From a virus: a stretch of 33,088 nucleotides of DNA. Under the pieces are notes generated by a model. It worked only from the letters and a program-made list of their open reading frames with translations. It was not told where the DNA came from and did no database searches. A program made the translations under genes and the position numbers. The stretch covers positions 1-33,088 of IMG/VR virus record IMGVR_UViG_3300022752_000238. One strand, 5' to 3'. Each line of letters begins with the position of its first letter. The first letter of the stretch is position 1. Shown here one piece after another: positions 3,476 through 32,595 of this stretch.

Positions 3476-4297
3476 TCAGCCTCCCGCCTCGCCCATCACA
3501 GCCTCGCGCATGTCGGCGACGCGCTTGGCCAGAACCTCAGCAATGTACGTGTCGACGTCCTGACCGGCCTTTGCTGCAAGCTCCGACATCCACTGCCTTG
3601 CCACGTCAGATCCGTTGCTGGCAGCCTGCGCCGTTTCGACCAGAAGCTGCTCACGACGCCACGCCTGAAACTGTTCCTCGCTCATGCCGGACGGCGAGGA
3701 CGCAGCTTGCGTGCCCTGTGGTGCAGGCAGGCTGGCCTGATGCTCGACTTGGTTCGCCGCCATCGGCACAGAAGCGACGTGCGCAGCCGGCATCGGCATG
3801 TGCACCTGCGCAGGCTGCGGGGCCTGCATCTGCACCACCTTCGTCTCTGCCGGGCTCTGGAACACCATCGGCCCCGACGGCGCTGCACCATTGATCACGA
3901 TGGGTGCTGCCTGCGGCGGGCTCTGCATGACCACCACCGGCGCCTGCGGCTGCATCATCCCCCACGGGGGCATGCCCATCGGCTGGCCGTACCAAGGCAA
4001 TGCCGGGGACTGTTGCTGGGATGCTCCCCCGAACGCCATCGATTCAACCGTCGGACGCCACTCGCCCGACCAATAGCGATCGTCCCTGAAATCCGTTGGG
4101 ATGCGCCGCATGGCCTTGATCATCCACGCGCTGTTGCGCAGCCCGTTGATGATGAGCTGCATCGTGCGCTTCTGCTCATCCGAGCCTTCGCGGTCGATGT
4201 TGTGCTGCACCGCATCGGGATAGACTGCCAGAATGCGTCGGCGGCACTCAGTGTCGACCTCCTCGGGATGCACGAGATGATCTGCCATCGTATCCAT
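3476..4297 (-). CDS. Hypothetical protein between two fibre genes, Pro/Gln/Met-rich centre
   Basis: A 273-aa protein not matched to a family. The N-terminal 85 residues are helical and charged (a possible folded domain around HPEEVDTECRRRILAVYPDA). Residues about 90-190 are low complexity, rich in Pro, Gln, Met and Ala. The C-terminal 75 residues return to a charged amphipathic helix (EEQFQAWRREQLLVETAQA...). The start chosen is the ATG whose A is shared with the stop of the upstream fibre gene (TGATG); a GTG one codon earlier is also possible. Its place between two fibre genes suggests a fibre assembly factor or connector, but this is context only. Confidence 0.75.
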   Translation of the reverse strand: MDTMADHLVHPEEVDTECRRRILAVYPDAVQHNIDREGSDEQKRTMQLIINGLRNSAWMIKAMRRIPTDFRDDRYWSGEWRPTVESMAFGGASQQQSPALPWYGQPMGMPPWGMMQPQAPVVVMQSPPQAAPIVINGAAPSGPMVFQSPAETKVVQMQAPQPAQVHMPMPAAHVASVPMAANQVEHQASLPAPQGTQAASSPSGMSEEQFQAWRREQLLVETAQAASNGSDVARQWMSELAAKAGQDVDTYIAEVLAKRVADMREAVMGEAGG

Positions 4298-5652
4298 CAC
4301 GTCGCGCTCAGGGTTTGGATGACCACTTCGGCATAGACTTCGGTTTCACCCGCGATTGCGGACGCATCGCCCAGCGTGGTGGCGCCGACAGTGCCCGCCA
4401 GAAGAAACACCAACTCGAATGATTCGCTGTCGGCGGTGACCTGGATGCGCCCATCGCAGTTGATCTCGCCCTGCTCGTTCGCAGCGAGATACAGCGGCAT
4501 GCCCTTGATCGACTTGGACGTCGTCGAAACGGACCGGAACGAGAGCTTGCCCGCGATAGCGCCCTTCAATCGCCGCCGTGCCGTCACCCGATACTGCCCC
4601 TTGGGCAACGTGATCACGTCGGAAGCCAGAACCGCACCAGTGATGCTGCTGTCCGACAGCGTGCCGAGCTTGTTGCGCGTCCAGAAGCCGGCGGTCGGTG
4701 CCGTTCCGCCATGAGCCGCAAGTGCGCCCGTCGACGAGGCGTGCTCGTCCTTGGCGATCATCACTTGCGCCGTGCGGCGCGAGCTTTCCGTCCATTCCGT
4801 ACCCGACCACGTGACCTCGACCTTTGAAACGCCAGTGGAGGTCGTGACCGATTCATCATCGAGGACCGCCGTGTCTCCGACTTCAGGCTTGCGCTGGATC
4901 CACGACCCAGCGCCGTTGGCGGTCATGAGATAGTTGATGGTCCAGCCGTTGGCGGTCGCGCCTGCGATGTACGTGTCACCAGGGTTGGCGACGCTGGGCG
5001 GCTTGGTGAGCGTTCTTGAACGCACCAGGATGCGCTTACGCGGCGATGGCGTCCGCGCCACCGTGCGGAACCCTGCCCCGTCCCACACGACGGTGACGAC
5101 CTCCTGGTCGTTCGTGAGCACGATCGCAACGATGCGATCGATGAGCGTGGCGCCCTGCCCCCGCACGATGAGCACGCCGCCGCCATCGTTGATCAGCGTG
5201 AGGGAGATACCATCGGTGAGGTCGGCGCCCTTGGGCAGGAACACGGTGGCATTGGCGCCCACCGCCGTTGTGATCGGAATGACCTTGCCGGCGTCGCTGG
5301 CCGTCAGCGAGATGACCACGCCAGATTTGGTCGACACCGGCGTTCGCGGTGTGGCTGTGGCAGCATTTCCGACCGCAGGTGATCCTGGATCAAACCCCGG
5401 AATGAGTTTGGTGCGTCCGTCCTCGTAGGTGATGCGGACGTCGAGCTTCACGCCATCGGGCTTGAGGTGGATGACCGGCAGGCGCCCGGTGACGTCGGCG
5501 AGGATGTCCGGCTGGTGCGCCGAGGCGAACTCGGGATCCTTGTAGGCGGTGGCCTTGCGGCTGGTGCCGGCAACGAGAAACGCGACCGACCATCGGTCCG
5601 GGGCGCCGTTGTGATCGACCTGCTGGAGGAGAGAATGGGGCCAGAGGGTCAT
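4297..5652 (-). CDS. Tail fibre-like protein
   Basis: A 451-aa beta-rich protein. The first 90 residues follow the fibre N-terminal pattern in which a short strand region leads to GTSRKATAYKDPE, then a DVTGRLPVIHL segment and a DGRTK turn. In other phages this module tops fibres attached to the baseplate or tail. The middle (about 105-210) resembles repetitive pectate-lyase-like or trimeric beta material (VVISLTASDAGKVI, SLTLINDGGGVLIVRGQG). Residues about 215-270 look like a DUF2793-style insertion (PGDTYIAGATANGWT). The C-terminal 150 residues form an all-beta domain. An upstream TTG at 5664 is in frame, but the ATG at 5652 is preferred. The gene opens the host-recognition cassette right after a gap with a hairpin and the 18-bp motif, so it may have its own transcription start. 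Confidence 0.8.
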   Translation of the reverse strand: MTLWPHSLLQQVDHNGAPDRWSVAFLVAGTSRKATAYKDPEFASAHQPDILADVTGRLPVIHLKPDGVKLDVRITYEDGRTKLIPGFDPGSPAVGNAATATPRTPVSTKSGVVISLTASDAGKVIPITTAVGANATVFLPKGADLTDGISLTLINDGGGVLIVRGQGATLIDRIVAIVLTNDQEVVTVVWDGAGFRTVARTPSPRKRILVRSRTLTKPPSVANPGDTYIAGATANGWTINYLMTANGAGSWIQRKPEVGDTAVLDDESVTTSTGVSKVEVTWSGTEWTESSRRTAQVMIAKDEHASSTGALAAHGGTAPTAGFWTRNKLGTLSDSSITGAVLASDVITLPKGQYRVTARRRLKGAIAGKLSFRSVSTTSKSIKGMPLYLAANEQGEINCDGRIQVTADSESFELVFLLAGTVGATTLGDASAIAGETEVYAEVVIQTLSAT

Positions 5653-5669
5653 GGGGATCCACAATGACG

Positions 5670-5700
5670 AAAGGCCCGGCTGGCGGGTTGCCAGGGGCCT
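5670..5700 (-). terminator. Hairpin ahead of the fibre cassette (terminator or 5' leader stem)
   Basis: On the minus strand AGGCCC pairs with GGGCCT, and an inner TGGC pairs with GCCA around an AACCC loop. TTTCG follows. The stem is strong but the T-run is only three long, and the fibre ATG lies 18 nt downstream. It can therefore be a weak terminator of the ejection-protein operon, an attenuator, or a 5' stabilising stem of a fibre transcript. The last reading is favoured by the similar motif-then-hairpin order near 32.0 kb. Confidence 0.5.
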
Positions 5701-5729
5701 GTTCGTGGTTCGGGAGTGTGCCTTGGTCT

Positions 5730-5747
5730 TGCCGTGATTTGTGCACG
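5730..5747 (-). promoter_or_regulatory. 18-bp intergenic motif, copy A
   Basis: The minus-strand sequence CGTGCACAAATCACGGCA is identical to positions 32026-32043. Both copies lie in gene-free gaps and both are preceded by TTGCCC or TTGACC two bases upstream on the minus strand. The core is an inverted repeat, CGTG-N7-CACG; in this copy the arms extend to CCGTG/CACGG. It lies about 30 nt before the hairpin at 5670-5700. No convincing -10 box follows, so it is called a putative regulatory element, not a proven promoter. Apart from this motif and the hairpin, the gap 5653-5795 shows no gene. Confidence 0.5.
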
Positions 5748-5795
5748 GCGGGCAAGGGGTGGAGGGTGGGTTGGTGGGCTAGGGTTGCAGGCGGG

Positions 5796-7739
5796 TTACT
5801 CGCCGCTGCGGGGTTTCCATTTCTTGGGGTCTGGCGGGCCGTCAAAGCGGCCGTCGTCGCCGCGTGGCTGAGCCTGCCAGTGGCCTTTGATTTCTTCGGC
5901 AGCAGCACCTGCGGCTACGGCTGCGGGGAGGGCGAGGGTGTGCGGCTTGCCGGTCACGGCGTCGAGAACGGACGATCGAATCTGTGGCGCCGTAATTGTC
6001 CGCTTCGCGCTTGGCATGGCGTCAAAAATTGCCTGAATGTCCATGGCGGAATCAAATGTCCCTTGCGCCCTGCTTCGCAGATTCGTCGGGTCGACGGGTG
6101 GCAACCCTCTGACGGCGTAGCGGCTTTGCAGCTGGTCAACCATATGAGCAACTGTATCGGGCTCCGTCTGCTTCATCGAAGCGTTGCGCGCGGCGTGGCG
6201 ATGCGTCAGCAGCTCGTCAACATACTGCCTAGATATGGGGCCATACGTGGTGGTATCGTAGGACGCGAAGGCATTGGGAGATGACGATGGCTGTGCGGCG
6301 GGACCGGGGGGCTGCTGGGGTGGCGGCGGAGGAGCTGTACCACTCCCTGATTGCGATCCCGAAGGCGGAGGCGGAGGAGGTGCTCCGGACCCTCCACCGC
6401 TGGCTCCGCGAGCACGAAGAGCGTCTCGCGTCCCAATCGCAGCCGGCCAATTCGGATCCATCCGCGGCACAAGCTCTCCCGCCTTGTAGCCCGACATCCC
6501 AAGCAGGGTCCCGAGTCCAGCCCTGGTGAGAAACGTGCCGGGGTCGAGCGCACGCTTGCGCGCCGCCTCCTTCTCAGGCCCATCCGGCAGATTGTACCAG
6601 TCGAATTGATCAGGGAACATCTGGCCTTCAGCCGCCAGAAATCCGCCCGCCGCACCTGCCGCCACCGGCTTTCCGGCCGCGCTCCACGACTTTCCGACAA
6701 CGCCCGGCTCCCGCTTTACGAACGCGTCAAGCACGGCACCTGAAAGGTCTTTCTGCGTTTCGGTTGCTGTCGGCGAGGTCAAGGCAGCCTGCCCTCGAGA
6801 GATCTCTCGATTAAGCCGCTGCGACGTCGACCACGGCAGGAACGTCGACGCATTACCGACCGCCCTGAGTGCAAACGGCACACCGGCGGCAGCCGCCATG
6901 CCAGCAACCGGAAGCATAGCCGCCTCGGTTGGGTAGCGCTCGCGAAACGGCGCCGTCGCCATGTAGGCCTCGCTTGCCCGCTTTTCAGCGTCAGCAAGCC
7001 GCTGGCGAAGCCCAGGGATGGCCGCACCGTTGGCGCCCGTCGTGCCATTGAGCATTGCATTCCAGGCCGCCGACTCGCGCTCGCGGCTTTTGTCGGCGCT
7101 GTTCTGGTTCATGCCGGGCTTGGCTTTTTCGCCTTCCGCCAGCTTGTCCTCAACTCGCTTTACCTGGTCGCGAAGGCGCCTCACCTCAGGATCGCGCTCA
7201 ACCGCCTCGGCCGCCCTTGACGACCCTGCTGCCTGTGCTTCACGTGCGCCCAGCATGGCGCCAGGAGCCGCGAGCGCGGCAGTCGTCGCAACTGCCCTTG
7301 GCACGGTGCCGCTCACGGCCCGCATGACAGGCGCTGCCGCGCGCACCACAGACGCACCAGGAAGTGCGCCAAGACCCATCTCGCCAACACCTGCCAGCAC
7401 ACGTAGACCATCACCCTGCTCGACGCCCTGAGCAACATTGTCGGCGCCTCGCACCATTGCCGGCACGCCGGTAAACTCAGCCGCCAGCTTGGCGGTATCC
7501 ATCACGGGCCGCAGCGGGTTCATGCTCGCCTGACCCGGCTGAAGCGGACCTTCTTTCACCATCGCCTGCTGCTCTCGCAGCCAATCCGGTGCCCCCATGC
7601 GTTCGCGCGGCGCCTCAACAGCAGCCACTGGCGGCGCTTCGGCAAACATCCCCGCATCCACCGGGTTGATCCCGAACTCAGGGCCGAACTCGTTCGCCAG
7701 AGCAATCAGCTTGTCAATGTAGTCCTGACGGATTGTCAT
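5796..7739 (-). CDS. Putative internal virion / DNA ejection protein
   Basis: A 647-aa, Ala/Gly-rich protein with low-similarity sequence, the last gene of the putative ejection block. Residues 1-25 (YIDKLIALANEFG) form an amphipathic helix. Hydrophobic Ala-rich stretches lie around 110-165 and 285-300, and a charged coiled-coil-like stretch (RRLRDQVKRVEDKLAEGEKAK) near 183-203. Two polyproline tracts occur near 455-485, followed by an SPNAFASYD segment. The start overlaps the previous gene by 4 nt (ATGA). Large helical Ala-rich proteins with hydrophobic patches, encoded after the tail hub genes, are typical of podovirus ejection proteins (P22 gp7/gp16/gp20 in function). No enzyme motif was recognised, so the role comes from position and composition. 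Confidence 0.7.
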   Translation of the reverse strand: MTIRQDYIDKLIALANEFGPEFGINPVDAGMFAEAPPVAAVEAPRERMGAPDWLREQQAMVKEGPLQPGQASMNPLRPVMDTAKLAAEFTGVPAMVRGADNVAQGVEQGDGLRVLAGVGEMGLGALPGASVVRAAAPVMRAVSGTVPRAVATTAALAAPGAMLGAREAQAAGSSRAAEAVERDPEVRRLRDQVKRVEDKLAEGEKAKPGMNQNSADKSRERESAAWNAMLNGTTGANGAAIPGLRQRLADAEKRASEAYMATAPFRERYPTEAAMLPVAGMAAAAGVPFALRAVGNASTFLPWSTSQRLNREISRGQAALTSPTATETQKDLSGAVLDAFVKREPGVVGKSWSAAGKPVAAGAAGGFLAAEGQMFPDQFDWYNLPDGPEKEAARKRALDPGTFLTRAGLGTLLGMSGYKAGELVPRMDPNWPAAIGTRDALRARGASGGGSGAPPPPPPSGSQSGSGTAPPPPPQQPPGPAAQPSSSPNAFASYDTTTYGPISRQYVDELLTHRHAARNASMKQTEPDTVAHMVDQLQSRYAVRGLPPVDPTNLRSRAQGTFDSAMDIQAIFDAMPSAKRTITAPQIRSSVLDAVTGKPHTLALPAAVAAGAAAEEIKGHWQAQPRGDDGRFDGPPDPKKWKPRSGE

Positions 7740-15267: not shown

Positions 15268-15294
15268 GATTTGATCATAGTCCCACGCTAGGGA
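15265..15294. promoter_or_regulatory. Inverted repeats between divergent genes (possible operator)
   Basis: The short gap between the minus-strand 810-aa gene and the plus-strand pair holds two small palindromes: ATGAT-TTG-ATCAT at 15265-15277 (including the 810-aa start codon) and GTCCC-N6-GGGAC at 15279-15294. Such a pair could be an operator or overlapping promoter region for the plus-strand genes. No clear -35/-10 pair was found, so the call is weak. Confidence 0.3.
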
Positions 15295-15317
15295 CGCCCA
15301 TCACTAAGGGGTGACGC

Positions 15318-15539
15318 ATGTATGAACTCGTTCTCTATGTTCAGATCGAACGTACGCTGATGCACATGCAGACCTATGCGATCTATGAGACCAAGGCTCA
15401 GTGCGAGGCGCACTTGCCCCCCGTCCGCGAGGTCATCAGCAACACACAGACGCTCGCAAGCGCTCATTGTAGATCGTTTGTTCCGCAGCCAAGTTTTTGG
15501 CCGCCGATGTGCCGCATAACAGGCGGCGGGAAGTCGTAA
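15318..15539 (+). CDS. Small protein on the opposite strand, moron-like gene 1
   Basis: A 73-aa protein read against the direction of all neighbouring virion genes. AAGGGG lies 7 nt before the ATG, a good ribosome site. It begins MYELVLYVQIERTL and has a central YETKAQCEAH and a later AHCRSF, a two-cysteine layout also seen in the next gene, so the two look like distant paralogues. The last 15 residues are less regular. No family is recognised. Base composition is lower in GC than in the flanking genes. Position, orientation and its own ribosome site fit a moron: a small gene expressed separately, often from a prophage, with a host- or superinfection-related role. That function is inferred. 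Confidence 0.6.
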   Translation: MYELVLYVQIERTLMHMQTYAIYETKAQCEAHLPPVREVISNTQTLASAHCRSFVPQPSFWPPMCRITGGGKS

Positions 15540-15551
15540 CGGAGGGGTGCT

Positions 15552-15839
15552 GTGGACTATATTCTTTACGTCTGGATCACCATCTCGCAGCCTCAACAAA
15601 ATGGCTTGGACTCGAGCAAAGAATTGGTAGTCAAGGCTGCGTTTGCTACCATGTCCGAATGCAAGGCCGCGCAAGCAGGCGCTGAAGCCGCGCATGCCAA
15701 GCAACCAGATGTTTTCGCCAGGTTCAATTGCGTGCGGGAGACCGACGCCGACCGTGAGGCACGGCAAAAGAAGCTAGCAGAGCGCAACAAGGCTCTGGCG
15801 CGGAGGCTGTGCGAGATGTACCCGGATCAGTGCAAATAG
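15552..15839 (+). CDS. Small protein on the opposite strand, moron-like gene 2
   Basis: A 95-aa protein starting at GTG, with GGAGGGG 4 nt upstream and the previous plus-strand stop 12 nt away, so the two genes form a mini-operon. It begins MDYILYVWITIS, has ATMSECKAAQAG in the middle and FNCVRE further on, the same Cys spacing style as gene 1. It ends in a charged helix (REARQKKLAERNKALARRL) with a final Cys pair (CEMYPDQC). It ends 3 nt before the stop of the convergent lysozyme gene. No family is recognised. Confidence 0.65.
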   Translation: MDYILYVWITISQPQQNGLDSSKELVVKAAFATMSECKAAQAGAEAAHAKQPDVFARFNCVRETDADREARQKKLAERNKALARRLCEMYPDQCK

Positions 15840-15842
15840 TTT

Positions 15843-20163: not shown

Positions 20164-20186
20164 AGTGATGATCCCGTGAGAGCGTT

Positions 20187-20222
20187 GAAAAGCAGCAGGG
20201 CGGCCAGAAAAGCCGCCCTGCT
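20187..20222 (-). terminator. Rho-independent terminator after the major capsid gene
   Basis: On the minus strand AGCAGGGCGGC pairs perfectly over 11 bp with GCCGCCCTGCT around a 7-nt loop, then GCTTTTC follows. It is placed 8 nt beyond the MCP stop and 24 nt before the next start. Partial termination here would make capsid transcript more abundant than the downstream genes, which have no obvious promoter in the gap. Confidence 0.85.
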
Positions 20223-20229
20223 GGGGTCC

Positions 20230-30433: not shown

Positions 30434-30729
30434 CTGATGCCGTGAAGGGCCTTAAAATCGATGGTTTCGGCAGCCGCGTCGTCGCTGTAGTCGTAGTCCT
30501 TATGGCGCTTAATTTTCATCCGGAAGCGACCGGCCTTGAGGCGATAGCGGGAAAGGTCGGGAGGGGTGAGTTCCCGACCTTCCAGGGGCGTGTTGCCCAA
30601 TACGCCCTGCTGCGGCTTGGGGAGTGCGCCGCAGATGCAGACGCGTTGAGCAACACGTCCTTCGGTGTCATTGGGGCCGGACCTGACGACGCGCATCATG
30701 CCGGTGCCGTTGCAAATGGCGCAGGTCAC
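30430..30729 (-). CDS. Cys-rich small protein (putative zinc-binding)
   Basis: A 99-aa protein. The GTG start at 30729 overlaps the preceding stop as GTGA; the longer open frame upstream is the other strand-frame of the membrane protein gene. Its N-terminus reads CAICNGTG, and CICG follows 23 residues later, a likely four-Cys zinc site. The C-terminal half (DLSRYRLKAGRFRMKIKRHK) is basic, then acidic with DDAAAETIDFKALHG. It may bind nucleic acid or act as an assembly factor. No family is recognised. Confidence 0.6.
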   Translation of the reverse strand: MTCAICNGTGMMRVVRSGPNDTEGRVAQRVCICGALPKPQQGVLGNTPLEGRELTPPDLSRYRLKAGRFRMKIKRHKDYDYSDDAAAETIDFKALHGIR

Positions 30730-31850
30730 GCAGCGGCCTTGCGGCCGAACTGGGCGTCGATGGCCGCCGCAATCGCGTCTTTCACGCGGACATCCACGTC
30801 GATGTGGTTGATCGTCGACGGCTGAGCCGACGGCGGCGGAGACGCTGAGCCGCCGAACAGAGCACGACGCAGCTTCCACATCGTCTTTTTGAGATCGAAC
30901 CACGGCGTGCGCTCACGCCCTTGAATGGCCATCAGCGCCATAACGAGACCTGCCAAGCTCACGAGCAGCATGTTCGTGAGCGAAGTCTGGAACGTCTCGA
31001 TCCACTGAACCTTCTCAGGTTCCGCCCCAGACACGTCGGACACAAGACCCACGAACGGCGTCACGTCGAAGGTCTGGACCGCCGTGTGGTCGTTCTTGCT
31101 CTGTGCGTCCTTCAGGACGGTGCGCGATGTGGCAAGCTGCTGCTCGGCCAGCTCGACCTTCTGCTGCCAGCGAGCGCGTTCCTCAAGGTCGGCCTTGGCC
31201 GCTTTGGCCTCGCCGTGCTCCTTGCAGAACTTGCGAGCCTGGGGACCCTGCGCATCGGTGCAGCCCTTGGTAAGGTCCCAGAACCGCGCGTTGCCCTCAT
31301 AGGACTTGATGAGGGCGCCGGCAGCGTTCGCCGACATGACCGGGCGGCCCGCCACTTTCGGCATCTCCTGCCACGTCATGGCCTTGAGATCGGCCAACGA
31401 TTTCTCATCGGCGCTCACGCGCTTGCGTGCATCGTCGACACCGGCGCGAACATCTTGATAGCTGACCAAAGCCGCCTTCTGAAGATTGGCGCGCTTGACC
31501 TGGCTTTCGGCAGCCGAGCCGATGGCGTTGTAGACCGAGAAGCCGAAGCCAATCAGCCACACCATGGACCATGCGATGGTCTGACCCTTGTGGGCGCCGT
31601 GCCACGCGATGACAGCGCGATGAACGCCCATCAGCTCAGCGATGATGGCGCCGAGTCCAAGCATCATCAACTTCCAGTAGGCAAGGCCACCGTCGGCGGC
31701 GCGGATTGCGGTGTTCTCGATGATCGACAGAACGGCAGCGCCGACCACCATGAAGACGAACACGCGCACAAGGGCGCCGTCGAATGCGTGATAGGCGCGG
31801 CTGACAGCGCCGTTCATGGCGCCGACCAGACCTTTTGAGGGGGTGTCCAT
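30726..31850 (-). CDS. Multi-pass membrane protein with large coiled-coil domain
   Basis: A 374-aa protein. Residue numbers below are from the ATG at 31850; an upstream GTG at 31880 is in frame. Three hydrophobic segments lie near 24-44 (ALVRVFVFMVVGAAVLSI), 57-80 (AYWKLMMLGLGAIIAEL) and 92-115 (WSMVWLIGFGFSVYNA). A charged helical domain of about 165 residues (120-285) follows, with a CTDAQGPQARKFC loop, and a fourth segment (TNMLLVSLAGLVMALMAIQG) lies near 295-315. The C-terminus is basic, with KKTMWKLRRALFG. The fold resembles no lysis protein I know. It may be an early membrane, exclusion or anchoring protein; the function is open. It follows the gap with the hairpin and 18-bp motif. Confidence 0.7.
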   Translation of the reverse strand: MDTPSKGLVGAMNGAVSRAYHAFDGALVRVFVFMVVGAAVLSIIENTAIRAADGGLAYWKLMMLGLGAIIAELMGVHRAVIAWHGAHKGQTIAWSMVWLIGFGFSVYNAIGSAAESQVKRANLQKAALVSYQDVRAGVDDARKRVSADEKSLADLKAMTWQEMPKVAGRPVMSANAAGALIKSYEGNARFWDLTKGCTDAQGPQARKFCKEHGEAKAAKADLEERARWQQKVELAEQQLATSRTVLKDAQSKNDHTAVQTFDVTPFVGLVSDVSGAEPEKVQWIETFQTSLTNMLLVSLAGLVMALMAIQGRERTPWFDLKKTMWKLRRALFGGSASPPPSAQPSTINHIDVDVRVKDAIAAAIDAQFGRKAAA

Positions 31851-31962
31851 AGGTTGCGGTCCCTGGATGGAACGCGGCACGCCATAATTCCGCCGACGCC
31901 GTTGGGCATCGTCGTGATGGTCGTTCGAGTATGTTGCGTTTGCGTAAGGGATCGGGAACGAC

Positions 31963-31999
31963 GACGGCCGGGCCAGGAACGCACTCCTGCCCGGCCGTC
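31963..31999. terminator. Strong GC-rich hairpin in the 31.9-32.1 kb gap
   Basis: GACGGCCGGG pairs with CCCGGCCGTC over 10 bp, and after a one-base bulge CAGGA pairs with TCCTG around a short loop. No T-run follows on the minus strand. It lies about 27 nt after the 18-bp motif and about 113 nt before the membrane protein ATG, so it would be in the 5' leader if transcription starts at the motif. The remaining gap (31851-32061) shows no gene. Confidence 0.55.
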
Positions 32000-32025
32000 A
32001 TACTTTCTGGATGTTGACACAGCGA

Positions 32026-32043
32026 TGCCGTGATTTGTGCACG
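32026..32043 (-). promoter_or_regulatory. 18-bp intergenic motif, copy B
   Basis: The sequence CGTGCACAAATCACGGCA is identical to copy A. On the minus strand it is preceded by TTGACC two bases upstream, a good -35-like match, but the 17-nt spaced -10 position (GCATCG) is poor. It lies 18 nt beyond the stop of the 177-aa gene. Confidence 0.5.
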
Positions 32044-32061
32044 CAGGTCAACAGGCTAAGT

Positions 32062-32595
32062 TCATTTCTGGTTCATGCCCTGGCGGGATTGCCACATGCG
32101 GTCCAGGCGGCCGAGGTTGGACTTGATGTAGGCGATACCGGCAATGTGAGCCTGACCGCGCTGCTTGCAGCCGAGCCACTTGCGGCCGATCTCCTCGGGT
32201 TTCACCGCAAGGTGGCCCAACTCGGTGAACTGGGCGTGCACCATCTGCTCCAGGACAGCATAGGCTTCAAGGCCGATCTCATTCCTCGCCCGGGCACATT
32301 CCTGGCTGTGGCGAGTGACGGCGAACTCGGTGGAGGACTCTTCCTCATCCAACCACCGGCCCGAGCCGTAGGCGTGGCCTTTGTGGAGGGCGCCGATGAT
32401 GTGGCGCTCCAGGCGGTCGCCGGCCCGGATCTCATCCGGGGTGAGGTAGACGTCGAGGGCGCTCCAGACCGACTTGATGGAGGCGTTGCGACGCTGGGTC
32501 TTGGCGTCGACCTTGGGTGCGGCGTAGCGATTGCCGGCCTTGCGGATGCCCTCCGGTGTGGGCTCAGCGGGTAGGATCGAGAGATTTGATCGCAT
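32062..32595 (-). CDS. Small helical protein, DUF6456-like, possible late-gene regulator
   Basis: A 177-aa protein. The ATG at 32595 has GAGG 5 nt upstream; the longer frame to 32694 reads low-quality sequence. The pattern YLTPDEIRAGDRLERHIIGA, a basic or acidic linker, CARARNEIGLEAYAVLEQMV, and a final HIAGIAYIKSNLGRLDRMW follows the layout I recall for the DUF6456 domain of alphaproteobacterial regulators. If correct, it could bind DNA or RNA polymerase. It lies just before the first copy of the motif, which fits a regulator role, but the call is tentative. Confidence 0.55.
   Translation of the reverse strand: MRSNLSILPAEPTPEGIRKAGNRYAAPKVDAKTQRRNASIKSVWSALDVYLTPDEIRAGDRLERHIIGALHKGHAYGSGRWLDEEESSTEFAVTRHSQECARARNEIGLEAYAVLEQMVHAQFTELGHLAVKPEEIGRKWLGCKQRGQAHIAGIAYIKSNLGRLDRMWQSRQGMNQK

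Follow-up and report, generated by a model that had tools for sequence, protein, structure and literature searches.

The window, by which we mean the whole stretch of DNA that was analysed, is an entire IMG/VR record of 33,088 bases in which nearly all genes lie on the - strand. It carries a podophage late module of P22-like type, with genes for the small and the large terminase, the portal, the capsid, a head closure protein, tail fibres and an endolysin, and the P22-like character is seen in the packaging and head proteins. No replication module was recognisable in the window, and the genome is therefore probably incomplete. Non-coding gaps account for 5.5% of the window. The major capsid gene is immediately followed by a strong terminator-like hairpin (20164-20229), with a 13-bp stem and then CTTTTC. 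Elsewhere, a 575-nt gap on the - strand (15268-15842) probably contains two short genes on the + strand (15318-15539 and 15552-15839), the second of which matches the end of a relative, L014, at 47%; P22-like relatives, too, have small genes in reversed orientation close to the fibre block.

The non-coding gaps at 5656-5795 (site A) and 31853-32061 (site B) each contain the same 18-bp block. The blocks and their neighbouring genes are listed below.

5730-5747, - strand: site A 18-bp block, CGTGCACAAATCACGGCA, an exact repeat of the block at site B
32026-32043, - strand: site B 18-bp block, CGTGCACAAATCACGGCA, an exact repeat of the block at site A
4297-5655 (start near 5653), - strand: tail fibre gene downstream of A (phrog_24210 tail fiber, E 6e-7)
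30726-31850, - strand: membrane protein gene heading the late block after B, with two hydrophobic segments
32062-32592, - strand: gene for a 177-aa protein directly upstream of B, occupying the position of a Q-type antiterminator (from position and codon score)

The original prediction had described two exact copies in the same orientation, both outside coding sequence and each with TTG(A/C)CC two bases upstream, and all of this was confirmed: the copies share the predominant coding strand, their gaps are gene-free, and the upstream hexamer reads TTGCCC at A and TTGACC at B. The blocks of genes that it had placed downstream were also recovered, namely the tail-fibre cassette at A and the membrane protein with the structural operon at B, with about 77 and 176 nt between block and start codon at the two copies. 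Allowing up to three mismatches, we found no further copies in the window (0.07 are expected from shuffles). Two + strand ORFs run over the sites (5664-6284 and 32011-32574), and they look like shadows because their codon scores (-0.24 and 0.03) fall below those of the - strand genes opposite (0.15 and 0.30). Reading the repeat as a peptide (both + strand ORFs have CRDLCT in frame) was rejected on these codon scores.

An 18-bp exact match had been considered unlikely to arise by chance. The repeat alone is not very rare, as an 18-mer repeat, direct or inverted, turns up in some 14% of the Markov copies (mean 0.22 such repeats per window); it is the joint placement that is beyond chance. Among the listed window repeats of at least 14 nt, only CGTGCACAAATCACGGCA has both copies in non-coding sequence, and the other comparably long repeats (25, 18 and 17 nt) fall within genes for repetitive proteins. 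The repeat by itself is no proof, and it is the placement and the stems that carry the case.

A strong stem had been predicted to begin about 27-30 nt downstream of each copy, and we found it, rich in GC, at 29 nt at A (from 5700 downwards) and at 26 nt at B (from 31999 downwards). The fold of the 55-nt stretch that lies 20-75 nt past the block beats 97.8% (A) and 99.85% (B) of window positions. Each site thus has the following hairpins, the first of which spans the block and the second of which is this downstream stem.

5721-5757, - strand: site A predicted two-tier hairpin; outer CCTTG (5757-5753)/CAAGG (5725-5721), inner GCCGTG/CACGGC, loop CACAAAT
5670-5700, - strand: site A second hairpin, AGGCCCCTGGC-aaccc-GCCAGCCGGGCCT, then TTCGTC; terminator-like, with a weak U-run
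32012-32053, - strand: site B predicted two-tier hairpin; outer TGTTGAC (32053-32047)/GTCAACA (32018-32012), inner CGTG/CACG, loop CACAAAT
31963-31999, - strand: site B second hairpin, GACGGCCGGGC...GCCCGGCCGTC, with an 11-bp perfect outer stem and without a U-run

As it lacks a U-run, the second hairpin of site B is not an ordinary intrinsic terminator. The inverted repeat CGTG-N7-CACG, proposed earlier as the core of the motif, is a perfect 6-bp dyad at A (GCCGTG/CACGGC) and falls short at B, where it spans 4 bp, extending to 6 bp if a G is bulged out. Around this core we recognise an outer inverted repeat that is new here and had been missed in the original prediction. The outer 5′ arms of A and B begin at the same aligned column, and the stems share three pairs (TTG/CAA) and differ by two compensated pairs (C-G to U-A and C-G to G-C). 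With shuffled flanks, the probability of an outer stem of at least 5 bp at A was 0.075, of at least 7 bp at B 0.010 and of both 0.0009, a result that is only suggestive because the test was devised after the stem had been seen. Folds of 101 nt gave z values of -3.6 (A) and -5.5 (B), and in the minimum-energy fold the inner part is paired somewhat differently in B than in A. The nested repeats suggest a two-tier RNA hairpin that would display a CACAAAU loop, followed by a terminator-like hairpin.

The exact 18-mer CGTGCACAAATCACGGCA has no match elsewhere in IMG/VR and was not found in the literature searched. Its 15-mer core has four matches in IMG/VR, which we judged by eye from their context to be chance. 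A one-mismatch pattern gave two matches, which is chance level, in 385 bacterial genomes from the class to which G001, a Caulobacterales MAG, belongs (the true host may be another). As far as tested, the motif appears to be phage-specific and not a host regulator site.

Relatives were found by capsid, 177-aa protein and portal, and no contig among them spans both sites; the terminase search returned only fragments or distant matches, and comparison of the leaders with phages by BLASTN gave nothing convincing. Four P22-like phages (CBW1004C-Prop1, Pam1, Pam5 and Pan3) have no between-gap repeats of at least 13 nt. A close relative, L003 (94-97% DNA identity), has its large terminase gene split at 4192-5235 by about 1 kb that lacks any long ORF, with residues 1-86 and 83-446 on either side; this interruption is intron-like and has no Rfam match. 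One bacterial genome (G017) holds two related P22-like prophages (L038-L041) with 75-79% DNA identity in their late genes, and in one of the two a 14-bp repeat, CATCCAGCTAAATA, stands immediately ahead of the late block and again behind the capsid gene.

The search with the membrane protein returned a single relative, L008 (IMG/VR, 10.7 kb), which has this membrane protein in common with the window (71% across the part that matched) and has packaging and portal proteins of a different, BPP-1-like group. The pattern C..GC.CAAATCAC, picked after L008 had been seen, occurs once in it, upstream of the late operon, and 25 nt later comes a hairpin ending GGCCUUUUU with a U-run; this run is thus present in L008, weak in A and absent in B. 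The L008 leader aligns with that of site A along about 120 nt (P 0.0005, 2000 shuffles), the block match alone being weak (P about 0.02), and is not significantly like that of site B (P 0.57). The inner dyad is absent in L008. On this comparison, the L008 leader is homologous to the site A leader, with a motif remnant and a GC hairpin at the head of a late operon.

We hypothesize that A and B are copies of one leader, placed where transcription would enter the tail-fibre (A) and structural (B) blocks. The element would be transcribed and act in the nascent RNA, where a phage factor or RNA polymerase itself may recognise the first hairpin. This hairpin would then decide whether the polymerase passes the second one, which may stop or slow it, so that the pair would form an antitermination or attenuation switch for the late genes. 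An RNA leader governing polymerase entry into the late blocks is our preferred reading, held tentatively as the foremost of several candidates. More firmly, the data point to a real phage-specific leader element that is used twice, on the basis of its sequence, its placement, the folds predicted for it and the homologous leader of L008. What speaks against the RNA leader is the small number of instances (a pair of copies in this genome and a single relative), together with the imperfect inner dyad of B, the absence of that dyad from L008, the missing U-run of B and the lack of significant likeness between the B and L008 leaders. Also against it, we found no boxA near either site (up to two mismatches), no leader match in Rfam at gathering score and no known antiterminator nearby among the family matches. 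The 177-aa protein, for which Pfam, PHROG and NCBIfam gave no convincing family match and whose structure model is poor (pLDDT 44), may be an unrecognised Q.

Among known systems, the late leader of lambdoid phages and P22 (pR′, qut and tR′, with Q) is similar in its place, between the gene in the Q position and the late operon, and in having a leader hairpin. It differs in being present once, whereas here there are two copies and neither a recognisable -35/-10 nor a Q family protein, and the conserved block lies outside any promoter-like site. The nut sites of lambda and P22 (boxA-boxB) likewise combine a small hairpin with a conserved loop in more than one place per genome; the leader described here has a 7-nt loop, a two-tier stem and no boxA. 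HK022 put RNA is a cis-acting RNA element that suppresses pausing and termination (PMC9378689). The put element consists of stem-loops near the transcript start, which act on polymerase without a protein. It acts on early genes, whereas the present leader is a predicted one without an Rfam match. The cluster K mycobacteriophages have start-associated sequences (SAS/ESAS; PMC3203893). These are short repeats that lie between genes, ahead of coding sequences, and contain an inverted repeat; many copies sit close to start codons. The likeness is the short intergenic repeat with its inverted repeat; the present element has only two copies, at distances of about 77 and 176 nt from the start codon.

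The original prediction had read the sites as a phage-specific promoter or operator paired with a 5′ leader stem. Its phage specificity, gene-free location, position at the heads of late blocks and leader stem all stand, a sigma-70-type promoter is not supported, and a simple dimer operator is weakened. A phage-specific promoter is nearly as likely as the RNA leader, and we place it close behind: the DNA block would be read by a phage-encoded polymerase, sigma factor or activator whose gene would lie in the part of the genome that is missing, and the hairpin would be a 5′ leader stem or a processing site, as after T7 promoters. In its favour, a contiguous asymmetric block stands on the same strand at the heads of two gene blocks, and comparable block-head repeats look like promoters in BPP-1-like podophages, the portal class of L008. 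T7-type promoters with an RNase III hairpin share with our sites the contiguous conserved block and the strong stem close behind it, before a gene block; unlike them, A and B have no AT-rich unwinding region, and no single-subunit RNA polymerase was seen in the window. Furthermore, neither site has -35/-10 hexamers at 16-18 bp spacing, gap A contains one TA dinucleotide and no TANNNT, the one TANNNT of gap B lies upstream of the block, and no conserved AT-rich melting region follows the block. No RNA polymerase was recognised in the window, from which part of the genome is missing, and none is annotated in the P22-like relatives examined. In one of these, CBW1004C-Prop1, antiterminator Q is annotated in the equivalent position, shortly before the late genes. 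We favour the nascent-RNA reading because of the missing sigma-70-like site, the lack of an annotated polymerase in these relatives and the Q in one of them.

The repeat seen in the BPP-1-like podophages is GGTRCCCGTR-N17-TANNNT, with three to four mismatch-free copies in each of four genomes (0.03-0.08 expected per genome). Several copies head gene blocks, fibre genes included, and it looks like a shared promoter class.

L018: 964, 4585, 22241 and 34056, - strand
L021: 4786, 21844, 33342 and 39325, - strand
L024: 5086, 23151, 27987 and 33792, + strand
L025: 18179, 21564 and 36089, + strand; 16017, + strand, with one mismatch

Sites A and B do not have this two-part layout. L018 (PQ492659, Limnohabitans phage DC33) is a 39-kb podophage-like genome that its record assigns to the Inoviridae, a classification that looks wrong.

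It is unlikely that the block is an operator, on which a dimeric phage regulator would bind TGCCGTG-N7-CACGGCA to repress or activate the late blocks. An inverted repeat does flank a 7-bp centre, the half-sites match well in A, and the right half-site, CACGGCA, is identical in A and B. However, the asymmetric centre CACAAAT is exactly conserved in both copies and the left half-site matches at only 4/7 positions in B, which together weaken a simple dimer operator, and no weaker copies occur elsewhere in the window. We give still less weight to a mosaic linker, that is, a leader that arrived with a gene module in the manner of a moron and was kept by recombination and not by function. L008 would fit this, as it has only the membrane gene and the leader in common with the window and its structural genes differ, but the 18 bp are identical amid diverged A and B flanks, which implies selection. 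Chance or a host regulator site can scarcely be credited: the frequency of 18-bp repeats in Markov copies speaks for chance, but two non-coding copies on the same strand, each before a strong stem, make it untenable, and the 385 genomes show no enrichment that would suit a host site.

A bolder form of the RNA leader, which we consider rather unlikely, is a new class of phage RNA leader composed of a two-tier hairpin, a fixed CACAAAU loop and a terminator-like hairpin. Such a leader would load an antitermination factor, possibly the 177-aa protein, or act on RNA polymerase directly; it would be used twice, gating the structural and tail-fibre blocks, and would move between unrelated podophages.

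If real, the element would mark the switch for late genes in an uncultured lineage of P22-like podophages, and would be a small RNA or DNA element with a partner to find. Late control is poorly known outside the enteric model phages, and an RNA element common to phages whose packaging genes are unrelated would suggest an antitermination module that can be transferred.
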